A stretch of 38,236 nt of DNA, taken from Acidilobaceae archaeon. Lineage in GTDB: Archaea > Thermoproteota > Thermoprotei_A > Sulfolobales > Acidilobaceae. How positions within the stretch are numbered: the first letter of the stretch is position 1; the number at the start of each line of letters is the position of its first letter. The position numbers and the translations under genes were made by a program. The notes under the pieces were generated by a model. It made no database searches. It was not told the DNA's origin and worked only from the letters and a program-made list of their open reading frames with translations. The stretch spans positions 1 through 38,236 of the forward strand of contig JAPYWV010000008.1 of NCBI GenBank assembly GCA_028276165.1, in the 5' to 3' direction. Shown piece after piece: positions 9,229 through 13,595 of the stretch.

Positions 9229-9741
9229 CTAGCTCTTAGCTCTTCTAGCTTTAAGCTGCTGGTACACCGTGTACGCTAAGGCTAGTGCTAGTGATGTGGT
9301 TGTAGATGCTAGTAGTATTGTTCTCACTGTTTGCTCGGGCTGAGCGTACTGGAATACGTTTAGAGCACCGTTAACCCTTGGGGCTTCGCAGCCTTCAATA
9401 GGCCTCATCTTAGCCTGTATACTGTAGAAGCCTGGGTGTGGTGTCTTGAACGTGTATACCTCCCTGAGGGGGCTATCGAGGGCCTCGACATCGAGCCTGT
9501 AGATTATGCTACCACTACCCTTAGAGTAGACTATCAAGCTTAGCCTATTGCATAGGGGGACGAACAAGCTCATATTGACGTAGCCCTCAAGAAGCCATAA
9601 GCTCATCTCACTATCCGTGTCTACTGTGAGAGGCATCGAACCGCGGGCGACAAAGACACTATTGTCCCTAGAGTAGACTGTAGCCCACGATACCAGGAAG
9701 AACAATGATATTGCTAGTAGGAGGTATGAGAGGGGCCTCAA
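9229..9741 (-). CDS. Secreted/membrane protein of unknown function with N- and C-terminal hydrophobic segments
   Basis: 170 aa. An N-terminal signal or anchor (residues about 4-22) is followed by an extracellular beta-type domain of about 110 residues with two Cys (around CNRLS and EGCEAP) and a C-terminal transmembrane helix (TILLASTTTSLALALAYTVY) ending in basic residues. TTG start, 3 nt after the stop of the 513-aa surface protein upstream, so the two are surely cotranscribed and may form a cell-surface pair. No family recognised. Confidence 0.65.
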   Translation of the reverse strand: MRPLSYLLLAISLFFLVSWATVYSRDNSVFVARGSMPLTVDTDSEMSLWLLEGYVNMSLFVPLCNRLSLIVYSKGSGSIIYRLDVEALDSPLREVYTFKTPHPGFYSIQAKMRPIEGCEAPRVNGALNVFQYAQPEQTVRTILLASTTTSLALALAYTVYQQLKARRAKS

Positions 9742-9744
9742 AAG

Positions 9745-11286
9745 CTACCGCCTCACAGTCCTAAGGTATAATGCTATGAGAGACATAGCTATGATGAGGG
9801 TCGCTGCTACCAGCACTACCTCAAGTGAGAGTATAGAACCCCTAGGAGGCTGTGCAGGCGTAGCTAGGGGAGGAGGCGTAGGCGTAACAATAGCCTGCAC
9901 AGGGGTACCAGGAGGCTGTGGAGGCTGTATCGTAGTAGGAGTTCGAACAATAACAGTGGGGGGAGCTGTAGCAGTAGGAGTAGTAGCATTAACCTGGGTT
10001 ATAGCCTGTGTAACCCCAACACCAACAGTAGTAGCATTAGCAGGGCTAGTAGCAACCCCAACCACACCAGTAGGCTGAACACTAGTAACCTCAGTGCTAG
10101 TATCATAAGCCGTTGTAACAACAGGAGGAGCCACATACTTGAGAGACCTTAAAATCCACGCTTGGGGACCACATCCTGCTCCTGGTAGAGGGTTGTACCA
10201 ACTTAGAGGTATTATGTATGATAGTACATCTGAAGTGGCGATATTATCGTTAAACCTATACGCTACACCGGTTTTAACGTCATAGACGTAGTTCACGTAT
10301 ATGTGTATGACATTTCGAGTCATAGGGCCTTTAGGGCCTATGATCCTCTTAAAGCCTAGTGATTCATAGAATCTCTCTGACATATTATACTCTGCATCCA
10401 CCCATCTACGTATAAATTCATGGTCATAGGTAGTAAACATAATTCTAGCTGTAAGTGTATCCTCAAGCCTTATAGTGATCCCGACAATCTCCTTGAAGTA
10501 ACGCTCCATATTCTCCCATATCCTTCTTAGAATTTCATGTTCATGCCAAGCGCTCACATCCGATTTTAGGGTTGCGTTTACCCTATCTATAGGCGGTTTT
10601 ACATCGAAAACCTTGTAGACAGCCATATCCGATAACACAACATTAGACCCCTCGTAAACCTCCCATGGTAGTAGGAAGAATGGCCAAACACCAGCATAGG
10701 AGCCCTTATAAACCATACTCCTATCCCTAGCAGAAACCCTAACAAACTCCTCAACAAAAGGAGACCTGTAGAGGACATTAGAGAGGTTCCTGGTATGAAC
10801 AATACTAAAACCAAACCTCAAAACAACATCATAGTAAACACCGTCAAAACCAACAACATGGAAGGAGAGGTTATAGTGAAACGTGTAACCCGCCTTTTCA
10901 AGCCTACTATAGAAGAGGTCCTCCAGGTAGGAAGCTACAAGAGCGGGGTCTTTAACAGCATTCCTATTCCTATTAAACCTTATAATCTCGTCACCCCACT
11001 TATCAACTATACTCTTGTAGAGCTCAGTATCATAATACTTGGCTAGGAGCATAGCAGAGGGAGGACCGCTACGATAAAGCCCATAGTAATCATACATATT
11101 ATACCTGTTAATAAGTGTTAGCAAAGGGCACTCGTACTCAACGTATAAGCCGACTAAACCATAGGGATCCCTCACATTACTAGAAACATTGCCGGGAACA
11201 CCATTAAATATAACGAGTAGAGCTAGTAGGATGAGCGTGATAGCAAAAGCAAACCTGGCCCCCAACATAGACCACCACACACCCAT
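9745..11286 (-). CDS. Large secreted surface protein with Thr/Pro-rich stalk and C-terminal anchor
   Basis: 513 aa, not recognised. A signal peptide (about residues 8-30) precedes a roughly 360-residue Tyr/Trp-rich ectodomain with NxS/T sequons. A linker of about 80 residues rich in Thr, Pro, Val and Ala follows (about 395-478, with runs such as PPQPPGTPV and TPTPPPLATP), then a transmembrane helix (LEVVLVAATLIIAMSLIALYL) and basic RTVRR. This is the architecture of an archaeal surface protein whose heavily O-glycosylatable stalk spans the S-layer. The ATG at 11286 is preceded by TATA-like AT-rich sequence at 11308-11327, giving a leaderless or nearly leaderless message. Confidence 0.7.
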   Translation of the reverse strand: MGVWWSMLGARFAFAITLILLALLVIFNGVPGNVSSNVRDPYGLVGLYVEYECPLLTLINRYNMYDYYGLYRSGPPSAMLLAKYYDTELYKSIVDKWGDEIIRFNRNRNAVKDPALVASYLEDLFYSRLEKAGYTFHYNLSFHVVGFDGVYYDVVLRFGFSIVHTRNLSNVLYRSPFVEEFVRVSARDRSMVYKGSYAGVWPFFLLPWEVYEGSNVVLSDMAVYKVFDVKPPIDRVNATLKSDVSAWHEHEILRRIWENMERYFKEIVGITIRLEDTLTARIMFTTYDHEFIRRWVDAEYNMSERFYESLGFKRIIGPKGPMTRNVIHIYVNYVYDVKTGVAYRFNDNIATSDVLSYIIPLSWYNPLPGAGCGPQAWILRSLKYVAPPVVTTAYDTSTEVTSVQPTGVVGVATSPANATTVGVGVTQAITQVNATTPTATAPPTVIVRTPTTIQPPQPPGTPVQAIVTPTPPPLATPAQPPRGSILSLEVVLVAATLIIAMSLIALYLRTVRR

Positions 11287-11307
11287 GGAAGAAAGAATTA
11301 TGGAGAG

Positions 11308-11327
11308 GGAGTTTAAAACGCTTATTT
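11308..11327 (-). promoter_or_regulatory. AT-rich promoter of the two-gene surface-protein operon
   Basis: Minus strand shows GTTAAATAAGCG followed by GTTTTAAAC. The downstream element is about 25 nt from the ATG at 11286. It overlaps the stop of the preceding small secreted-protein gene. Confidence 0.4.
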
Positions 11328-11724
11328 AACACGCTCCTGGAGAAGCAGCAATCCTAGCCTCAGCCCTAGCGTATCCGACTTGTTCACCGCCTATGTAAGC
11401 CTCTCCTACAGTTACTGTTGTAGCTCTATGAAACACTACGGCAGGCGGTGTTGAAACGCTAATGCTCCCTGATGCTGGGGAACTTATGAAGCCCCCACCG
11501 GCACCCCAAACATTGAATATCCACCCGGTGAAACAGCCGAACTCATCCAGCTCGGCATCACCACGAACATAAGCCCAAACATACACATAGTTACCGCTAG
11601 CTGAAGCGTAATTCGATAAGGGTATATAGCCTGAGGCGAGAGCTACGAGGGACCCCAGGGTCAACGCTAACACAGATACCGCTACAACCGATATACTCTT
11701 CTTTTTAGGGAAGCCCAAAACCAC
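11326..11724 (-). CDS. Small secreted protein, unknown; start codons lie in a perfect inverted repeat
   Basis: 132 aa. The N-terminus has a basic PKKK patch then a hydrophobic helix (ISVVAVSVLALTLGSLVALASG), a good signal peptide or type-IV-pilin-like anchor. The mature part is Gly/Ala/Ser/aromatic-rich and beta-like, with one internal Cys (FGCFTG) and a C-terminal Cys as last residue (SPGAC), which could form a disulfide. GTG start; TATA-like ATTATAC on the minus strand (11752-11758) is about 28-34 nt upstream, so the message is leaderless. The first 11 codons and the promoter loop are duplicated in inverted orientation just upstream. It could be a pilin-like or S-layer-associated peptide; no homology is recognised. 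Confidence 0.6.
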   Translation of the reverse strand: MVLGFPKKKSISVVAVSVLALTLGSLVALASGYIPLSNYASASGNYVYVWAYVRGDAELDEFGCFTGWIFNVWGAGGGFISSPASGSISVSTPPAVVFHRATTVTVGEAYIGGEQVGYARAEARIAASPGAC

Positions 11725-11796
11725 ACATATAGTGAGCCCCCAGAGAGGTGGGTATAATGGGTGTGGTTTTGGGCTTCCCTAAAAAGAAGAGTATAT
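11691..11796. repeat. Perfect 36-bp inverted repeat around a 34-bp promoter-like loop
   Basis: Arms 11691-11726 and 11761-11796 are exact reverse complements over 36 bp; the bases just outside do not pair. The loop 11727-11760 holds a TATA-like element for the minus-strand gene (11752-11758) and a weaker ATATAG near the other edge for the plus strand. The right arm carries a second copy of the GTG and first 11 codons of the small secreted protein, reading rightward into a short 29-codon ORF that stops before the ABC ATPase gene end. Confidence 0.9.
11759..11777 (+). repeat. Left copy of a 19-bp inverted repeat flanking the ABC gene pair
   Basis: GGGTGTGGTTTTGGGCTTC reads rightward here. A copy with one mismatch reads leftward at 13346-13364, so the 1.57 kb ABC cassette lies between inverted copies. 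Confidence 0.55.
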
Positions 11797-11868
11797 ACTT
11801 TTATCTATGCCAGAGTACTTATAGTATTTCTGTTGCCCGTGTGTGCTTGTGATTGCTTGTATGTGTTT

Positions 11869-12519
11869 TTACTCTATCTTTTTGATCTCCACTATTTTCC
11901 CTAGCTCCATTTTTACTATCGTTTTCACCTGTTTTTCTAGTTTTTCTGGTATTATGTGTGTTGCTACTAGTACTGTGGTTCCTTTTTCTGCTTTCTCGCT
12001 TATCATGTCTACTATTGTTTCTCTTGATTTCATGTCTAGTGCTTGGAATGGCTCGTCTAGCATTATGACCTCTGGTTTTCCTGTGAATGCTAGTAGTAGT
12101 AGGCATTTTCTCCTCATCCCCGTACTGTACGCCCCGTATGGTCTCTCCCAGTACGTGTCTACTCCTAGGGCTTCTGCTACCCCTAGGATCTCCTGCCATG
12201 GTGTTCTCGTTATCCTTGCTGTAGCTCTGGCTATGTCTATGCATGGTAGCCATACTGGTAGGCTAACCCTGTCTAGGAGTGCTCTAACCCTAGGGGCTAG
12301 CTTGGAGGAGTCCCTCCACGGGTCCAGGCCTAGGACCCTAGCGTAGCCTGAGCTAGGCCTCTCAGCACCAGCTAGTATTGATAATAGTGTGCTCTTACCA
12401 CTACCATTAGGGCCTACGATTACGTGAACTCCAGGACCTTCAATTGATAGATCTACATCGTCGAGAGCGACATTAGGCCAGTAAACCTTCCTAATACGCT
12501 TAGCAACGATAACCTCCAA
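11869..12519 (-). CDS. ABC transporter ATP-binding protein
   Basis: Single nucleotide-binding domain powering the divergent permease. Walker A GPNGSGKST, a degenerate signature YSTGMRRK in place of LSGGQ, Walker B VIMLDEP and H-loop VATH are visible; length and layout fit ABC-2 type exporter ATPases. I start at the TTG at 12519 (giving EVIVAKRIRKVYWP...), not the TTG at 12540, because family members begin at this strand and the TATA box at 12555-12562 is only about 17 nt from 12540 but 38 nt from 12519. The substrate is unknown; proximity to small secreted proteins makes peptide or protein export one option. Confidence 0.88.
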   Translation of the reverse strand: MEVIVAKRIRKVYWPNVALDDVDLSIEGPGVHVIVGPNGSGKSTLLSILAGAERPSSGYARVLGLDPWRDSSKLAPRVRALLDRVSLPVWLPCIDIARATARITRTPWQEILGVAEALGVDTYWERPYGAYSTGMRRKCLLLLAFTGKPEVIMLDEPFQALDMKSRETIVDMISEKAEKGTTVLVATHIIPEKLEKQVKTIVKMELGKIVEIKKIE

Positions 12520-12554
12520 GCTAGAAGCCCTAGGGTTCAAACTACAAGGGAACC

Positions 12555-12562
12555 TTTATAAA
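12555..12562. promoter_or_regulatory. Palindromic TATA box shared by divergent ABC genes
   Basis: TTTATAAA reads the same on both strands and is the only clear TATA element in the intergenic gap between the ATPase and permease genes. It would fire the ATPase leftward and the permease rightward, keeping both subunits matched. Confidence 0.5.
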
Positions 12563-12578
12563 CCTGCTGGTTAAACCC

Positions 12579-13334
12579 GTGTGTGGAGCTGAGACCGCCT
12601 TGAGCCTTAGAATTGCAGGGGTATACTTAGGAGACCCAGTGGTGCTCCTGCTATCAGCGATACTAGCAGGCCTCATAGTATTCCTGATAGCGAGTAAAAC
12701 GTTCATTCACTATGCCTATGGAACCCTACCTAGAGGGGAGGAGTTCCGCCTCACAACGGGGTTTAGCGATCCTGATCTAGCATTCCTAGCGAATATGAGG
12801 GTGGTAAATAGCATTATGGAGTCGTTCCTACTACTAGGAGCTGTGACAGCCATAGCAGGATCGTACATGGTGGGGATGGGGAGGGATCAGGGTTACACGG
12901 CACTCTCAACACTAGTAGGGCTGGGTAGGAGAGCTTACATAAGAGCTTTAACACTATACCCGCTAACACTATACCAGGCGGCAACAGTACCGGGATCAAT
13001 GGTGGCACTAGCGCTAATAGACCCAAACTTGATAAGATACTGGAAGCTGGTGGTAGCAACAACGCTCATAGCACTAGCCGTAGTACAAGTACAGCTGACA
13101 ATAGCCATACTAGCAACATACATCCTAGCAAACACGTACAGAGGTATAATAGCGACAATAGCCACACTACTACTCATAACAACAGCTGGAATCCACAACA
13201 ACATAGCGAGAATAATACAAGAAAAACAGACAATGAACGAAATCCTAACAACAACAATAGCATTGACAATAGCGACAACATTAGCACTATCAATAGCGTA
13301 CACCATAATAGAAACAAGGATGACGGTAAGGTAG
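12579..13334 (+). CDS. ABC transporter permease-like polytopic membrane protein
   Basis: 251 aa with about six hydrophobic segments: residues about 20-40, 85-105, 125-150, 158-180, 188-203 and 220-242. The order of segments, the charged loop after the first (GTLPRGEEFRLTTGF) and the divergent partner ATPase point to an ABC-2 type permease, although no family signature is decisive. Start GTG 12579 is listed; TTG at 12600 is equally possible because transcription from the TATA box at 12555-12562 should begin near 12585. The 3' third is very rich in ACA/ATA codons, unlike the ribosomal genes, which hints at a different origin. Confidence 0.7.
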   Translation: MCGAETALSLRIAGVYLGDPVVLLLSAILAGLIVFLIASKTFIHYAYGTLPRGEEFRLTTGFSDPDLAFLANMRVVNSIMESFLLLGAVTAIAGSYMVGMGRDQGYTALSTLVGLGRRAYIRALTLYPLTLYQAATVPGSMVALALIDPNLIRYWKLVVATTLIALAVVQVQLTIAILATYILANTYRGIIATIATLLLITTAGIHNNIARIIQEKQTMNEILTTTIALTIATTLALSIAYTIIETRMTVR

Positions 13335-13595
13335 ACTTATATCAAGAAGCTCAAAACCACACCCACTTCACTTAGGAGCCCACTACGGGTATGTGGGACA
13401 CCCATACCATGTGGAAGCCTTGTTGAGATTACCACCTCTTTCAGTACAACCCTCAATTACATGGCCATCGCATAACCGTGTGAGAGAAGCATTAGAGAGT
13501 GTTCCGAGGATAACACAGCCTACTACAAGCACGCGACCACATACATGCAGATCTGCTAGCTGTGCTAGAGCTCTTGTAAGGATCCAAGGCCGGTG
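13335..13595. other. Intergenic stretch with a partial copy of the secreted-protein gene start
   Basis: Holds the right-hand 19-bp repeat copy (13346-13364) on the minus strand, where GTG-GTT-TTG is followed by a stop after seven codons. A 74-codon plus-strand ORF runs into the antisense of the tRNA and is not credible. Nothing else seen. Confidence 0.5.
13346..13364 (-). repeat. Right copy of the 19-bp inverted repeat
   Basis: On the minus strand GGGTGTGGTTTTGAGCTTC, 18 of 19 identical to 11759-11777. Downstream similarity to the secreted-protein gene breaks down after GCTTC. Confidence 0.55.

Follow-up and report, generated by a model that had tools for sequence, protein, structure and literature searches.

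Introduction

Bacteria offer classic examples of phase variation by DNA inversion, and Chanin et al. in 2024 reportedly found intragenic invertons in isolates of archaea as well as bacteria. Two bacterial invertons close to the system discussed here are CwpV of Clostridioides difficile and fimS of E. coli. At CwpV, 21-bp imperfect repeats enclose a 195-bp segment that lies 57 bp upstream of the start, regulation is explained by a terminator model, and the published genome sequence is in the OFF orientation (PMC2784873); fimS is 314 bp long (PMC9993118). Here we describe a perfect inverted repeat at the start of a small secreted-protein gene in a stretch of 38,236 nucleotides from Acidilobaceae archaeon (contig JAPYWV010000008.1 of assembly GCA_028276165.1), hereafter the window, which makes up the entire contig C3 of a metagenome-assembled genome (MAG; G000) of 1.71 Mb in 158 contigs, together with two further repeats of the same kind on contigs C41 and C57. 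We think it probable that these elements are phase-variable ON/OFF switches of translation initiation, thrown by inversion of a loop of 32 to 49 bp. All of the evidence is drawn from this one assembly.

Like the bacterial invertons, the elements described here consist of inverted repeats around a short segment upstream of a gene for a surface or secreted protein, with a predicted ON/OFF outcome. They differ from CwpV and fimS in their perfect arms of 36 to 46 bp, their loop of only 32 to 49 bp, the fact that one arm is coding, the ribosome-binding site in the loop, their archaeal host, and the lack of a linked recombinase. With the intragenic or gene-altering invertons of Chanin et al. 2024 and of Milman et al. 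they would share an effect on the translated product and not just on the promoter, and they may differ from those systems in being a translation-start cassette that recurs at three paralogous operons.

Much smaller inversions are known from chloroplast genomes, where loops of 5-50 bp between inverted repeats of 11-24 bp flip-flop, which is ascribed to stem-loop recombination (Kim and Lee 2005, as cited in PMC12928735). These are likewise small flip-flop loops, but they have shorter arms and are regarded as mutational noise, whereas the loops described here hold the start signals of conserved operons. Loop inversion and the repair of stems are known outcomes of template switching (PMC8794818). 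The process accounts for the creation of perfect stems, for their homogenization, and for inversion of the loop only, although it has been described as mutation rather than as a means of regulation. No inversions turned up in the six archaeal genomes included in a survey of 209 sequencing data sets (PMC5903667).

Results

In the window, the two 36-nt arms are 100% complementary and enclose a 34-nt loop (Table 1), exactly as the initial annotation had read them, and its observation that both arms carry the same GTG and following codons also holds. Contig C41 carries perfect 42-bp arms around a 49-bp loop (L035:85-126/176-217), and C57 carries perfect 46-bp arms around a 32-bp loop (L082:3430-3475/3508-3553); in contig positions these elements occupy C41:85-217 and C57:13429-13552, and the one in the window measures 106 bp. 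All three repeats are placed at the first codons of the small secreted-protein gene that leads a paralogous operon, with one arm coding and the other outside. The arms are identical within a locus and mostly unlike between loci, and each repeat is single-copy in the genome; dispersed copies being absent, a miniature inverted-repeat transposable element or other mobile repeat was ruled out. The inner arm ends (window 11713-11726 and 11761-11774; L035; L082) have a weak TGGTTTTGGG-like motif in common (8/400 shuffles); it falls in differing reading frames and might be either a recombination core or chance.

From base composition, about 4e-14 repeats of the window's type are expected per genome by chance. 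The window repeat is the sole perfect inverted repeat in the 38-kb contig with arms of at least 15 nt and a loop of at most 400 nt; in a first 266-kb sample of the genome, which takes in the window and C41, only the repeats of these two contigs reach arms of at least 13 nt (perfect, loop at most 150 nt), and none with perfect arms of at least 14 nt occurs in a further 237 kb around other ATP-binding cassette (ABC) paralogues. This background comes from sampled stretches (~500 kb) rather than from the entire genome, so further copies of the repeat may exist. Among related genomes, 275 kb of G005 holds no perfect inverted repeat longer than 16 nt, and the longest in 305 kb of G001-G005 has 15 nt; the short inverted repeat is lacking in G005, the nearest relative with this operon. 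Inverted repeats around a short segment beyond chance expectation are a mark of invertons, while loops of 34, 49, and 32 bp between perfect arms of 36, 42, and 46 bp agree with what is expected of hairpin-loop small inversions (a loop of ~5-50 bp between perfect inverted repeats).

The loops carry a Shine-Dalgarno (SD) sequence at all three loci, joined by an ATG at two of them; the GTG start of C57 sits in the arm. As assembled, all three loops are directed away from the gene, which we call OFF. Flipping the loop of the window turns GAGGTG-GGTATA-ATG toward the gene, in frame as MGVVLGFPKKKSISVVAVSVLAL...; flipping that of C41 presents GAGGGTGAATGGGGG-ATG, in frame as MNRLFSGFWLKAFLSLTLSIVVIA...; and at C57 the flip brings TAGGAGGTGGTCATACC immediately 5' of the GTG of MLWVLKSVNTSLAGILLAF.... 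At each locus a flip yields a strong SD sequence in frame ahead of a complete signal peptide, with energies of -10.6 (window), -8.5 (C41), and -14.0 (C57) kcal/mol ahead of the in-frame starts. Shuffled loops do as well as the flipped ones with P = 0.0023, 0.018, and 0.0004, respectively, values that may fairly be doubled because each covers one chosen orientation. Another mark of invertons is an expression signal whose contact with its gene is made or broken by inversion, and here a flip would bring either an SD sequence or an SD sequence plus ATG into frame at 3/3 loci.

The assembled orientation offers far less to the gene. C41 then has no in-frame ATG, GTG, or TTG 5' of the hydrophobic part of the signal peptide, C57 is without an SD sequence (+1.0 versus -14.0 kcal/mol when flipped), and the window is left with a GTG of weak support (SD energy -7.2 versus -10.6 kcal/mol when flipped). 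In this genome GGTG occurs upstream of 25% of first ATGs versus 5% of internal ATGs, and SD motifs are, judging from these counts, in use. The outward-facing frames stop after 31 (window), 44 (C41), and 15 (C57) residues, and the device would therefore be ON/OFF and not A/B, there being no second gene; a two-gene switch was ruled out on this ground, and the second gene start that had been proposed for the outer arm of the window opens only into a dead end.

In the window, the promoter likely lies outside the loop. On the gene strand, the sequence just beyond the outer arm, AGATAAAAGT-ATATACTCT, aligns with the region upstream of the G005 orthologue, AGATAAAAATATTTAAACTCT (1/2000 shuffles for copy 2 and 64/2000 for copy 1), and this resemblance suggests that the TATA element is situated where it would not move with the loop. 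Neither the loop of C41 nor that of C57 has a TATA suitably spaced from an in-frame start.

At C41 the inverted homology runs past the perfect arms with substitutions and a gap (0/2000 shuffles, first 30 nt). Since this outer homology has diverged, the duplication is probably older than the perfect core, whose inner arms appear to have been homogenized, so that the active homogenization suggested earlier for the window repeat gains support from this paralogue. Further along the window, the loop start region and inner arm recur in a degenerate third copy (Table 1), likely a relic of an older rearrangement.

Table 1. Features of the inverted repeat and its operon, in window positions
Feature	Position	Strand	Remarks
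Gene-side arm	11691..11726	-	Holds the initial codons (VLGFPKKKSI) of the gene for the small secreted protein
Invertible loop (putative), 34 bp	11727..11760	.	Start signals as assembled on the + strand, facing away from the secreted-protein gene (OFF)
Shine-Dalgarno GAGGTG in loop	11745..11750	+	As assembled points away; after a flip, toward the gene
ATG in loop, 6 nt past GAGGTG	11757..11759	+	After a flip, in frame with the secreted protein (MGVVLGFPKKKSISVVAV...)
Outer arm	11761..11796	+	Opens into a 31-codon dead-end frame
Likely B recognition element (BRE)/TATA (AGATAAAAGT-ATATAC) for the secreted-protein gene	11791..11806	-	Outside the loop; resembles the orthologous promoter region in G005
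Degenerate third copy of loop start region and inner arm	13346..13385	-	Directly follows the permease gene on its downstream side; alignment score attained by 0/500 shuffles
Small secreted protein, signal peptide	11326..11724	-	132 aa if begun at GTG, 134 aa if begun at the flipped-in ATG; no family match
Large secreted protein, 513 aa	9745..11286	-	Pro/Thr-rich stalk, C-terminal membrane helix
Membrane-anchored operon protein, 170 aa	9229..9741	-	
Operon ABC transporter ATPase	11869..12540	-	
Membrane protein, likely permease partner of the ABC ATPase	12579..13334	+	Found only at the window locus, C41, and G005

The operon of the window comprises the genes of the small secreted protein, the large Pro/Thr-rich protein, the 170-aa membrane-anchored protein, an ABC ATPase, and its likely permease. 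This set is present as a paralogue on C41, where the small protein is paired with that of the window mainly by position, the sequence similarity being weak, and it occurs in G005 (contig CAKZTZ010000010.1, uncultured Sulfolobales archaeon), where it is duplicated in inverted orientation. C57 holds a third, more distant operon, which encodes a small secreted protein, a large Pro/Thr-rich membrane-anchored protein, a permease-like membrane protein, an ABC ATPase (40% identical to that of the window), and a beta-propeller-like protein; the last of these, at the end of the operon (L082:7665-9203), is secreted, has a C-terminal membrane helix, and gives a weak SBBP match. The genes of all three operons are still open although they are assembled OFF. 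The secreted proteins have no Pfam, NCBIfam, or PDB relatives, and AlphaFold models of the small and the large protein (pLDDT 39 and 40) are too poor for use. Since neither relatives of the large protein nor copies of the arm were present in viral contigs, a virus origin was rejected.

In the window (9229-13334) the ABC ATPase gene is upstream of the secreted-protein gene, whereas in G005 (L019) and C41 (L035) it comes last; the permease gene is divergent in the window and G005 and inside the operon in C41. Gene order thus differs across all three copies, which indicates frequent rearrangement. The two G005 copies (L019, G005:C10 1-6530) are ~95% identical over the divergent promoter and the start of the permease gene and ~50% identical over the small secreted-protein gene, which looks as if their 5' ends had been homogenized; the contig starts within this repeat.

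The genome encodes two tyrosine recombinases, which sit on C69 and C5 and not on C3, C41, or C57; no recombinase gene was found to be linked to the switch or close to any of the three loci, and no serine recombinase was found in the genome. The enzyme on C69, which adjoins a topoisomerase VI-like gene, we take to be XerA, both names being assigned from the sequence. The other is a mobile-element-type tyrosine recombinase of 430 aa (L048:8496-9788), a possible inversion enzyme.

Discussion

If these elements act as ON/OFF switches of translation initiation, the promoter would remain outside the loop, transcription would pass through the repeat in both states, and the short loop would bear the ribosome-binding site, alone or together with the ATG. 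In the ON state, the mRNA would hold an SD sequence and a start codon that reads in frame into the signal peptide of the first secreted gene, and in the OFF state, in which all three operons are assembled, it would receive no good SD sequence from the loop and, at C41, would be without an in-frame start for the signal peptide. We infer that the loops flip in present-day cells and that this would alter expression of the operons. Inversion is most likely mediated by the hairpin itself, in that the replication polymerase may switch template within the perfect arms and copy the loop from the opposite strand, an event that would invert the loop yet keep the arms identical. In its predicted working the device resembles an inverton, a class whose strict membership requires both orientations in one population. 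More tentatively, and with somewhat more doubt than confidence, we propose that a whole archaeal family of secreted-protein/ABC-exporter operons is controlled by flipping of 32- to 49-bp ribosome-binding-site cassettes within long perfect palindromes, without a dedicated recombinase, so that template switching would have been harnessed as a programmed and repeated form of translational phase variation.

The flipping could instead be carried out by a site-specific recombinase, either XerA or the mobile-type tyrosine integrase on C5, acting on the arms of the same switch. We regard this as rather unlikely, and the confidence placed in it overlaps with that placed in the hairpin-mediated switch where only the flipping enzyme differs. 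The presence of the two tyrosine recombinases and the weak TGGTTTTGGG-like motif common to the inner arm ends speak for such an enzyme, but the arms are almost wholly different between loci, neither gene is nearby, and no serine recombinase was found in the genome. Moreover, the loops would leave very little room for synapsis of two duplex sites. Known bacterial DNA-inversion switches do rely on such enzymes (PMC2784873, in its discussion of CwpV). A clearly less likely alternative is that the repeats are mutational fossils, in which template switching during replication gave rise to an inverted duplication and, once per locus, turned the start region around, thereby inactivating the operons without any programmed switching. 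One template-switch event suffices for exactly such a structure (PMC8794818), the assembled state is OFF at all three loci, and the degenerate third copy in the window is in line with accidents of this kind. However, that the same accident should befall the same codons of three paralogous operons and nowhere else in the ~500 kb sampled is hardly plausible unless selection or some locus-specific process was at work, and the genes and the operons downstream of them have stayed open, while the inner arms of C41 are still perfect although the outer homology has diverged.

Two readings appear much less probable still. The 36- to 46-bp stem might work as an RNA device, that is, as a transcript attenuator or a translation block for which the orientation of the loop is irrelevant, and the fold of the RNA strand is indeed very stable (-70.4 kcal/mol, z = -11.3). 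We nonetheless consider this very unlikely: no known RNA family in Rfam was matched, the reversed start cassette in each loop would be left unexplained, and the full stem may not form in the transcript, because the likely promoter position would start the transcript inside the outer arm. The initial annotation had placed an invertible promoter in the loop, to serve one or the other of two gene starts, and as assembled the window does have a TTATAC that precedes the GTG by ~31 nt, a distance that would suit a leaderless start. The TATA-like GTATAATGG of that proposal holds the ATG, with GAGGTG at 6-nt spacing, and is better read as a ribosome-binding site plus start codon. Its idea of an invertible switch before the secreted-protein gene is well backed by the recurrence of the device at three paralogous operons, but a promoter within the loop was rejected in view of the likely TATA outside it and of paralogous loops without a suitably placed TATA in the same orientation, and with the outward frames being dead ends we judge this version to be highly improbable.

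Several observations weigh against the translational switch that we favor. All three loci, coming from one assembly, are in the identical OFF orientation, which is compatible with a mostly-OFF population and also with inactivation. The TATA similarity is significant for just one of the two G005 copies, and homology in the outer flanks is significant at C41 alone (40/1000 shuffles at C57, none at the window). Leaderless initiation is possible, and the GTG in the window arm could be used weakly in the OFF state, given its SD energy of -7.2 kcal/mol. Finally, the 16S gene, including its 3' end, was not detected in the MAG, so that the anti-SD sequence was assumed to be canonical.

Should the proposed switching be real, genes of this kind that are assembled in the OFF state may be missed or shortened by gene callers, and three parallel switches in one crenarchaeal genome would make a strong archaeal case of phase variation by inversion. 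What they would control is the start of translation and not a promoter, and their invertible segments would be very small. Their existence would also suggest that a hairpin process independent of sequence can work as a genetic switch.
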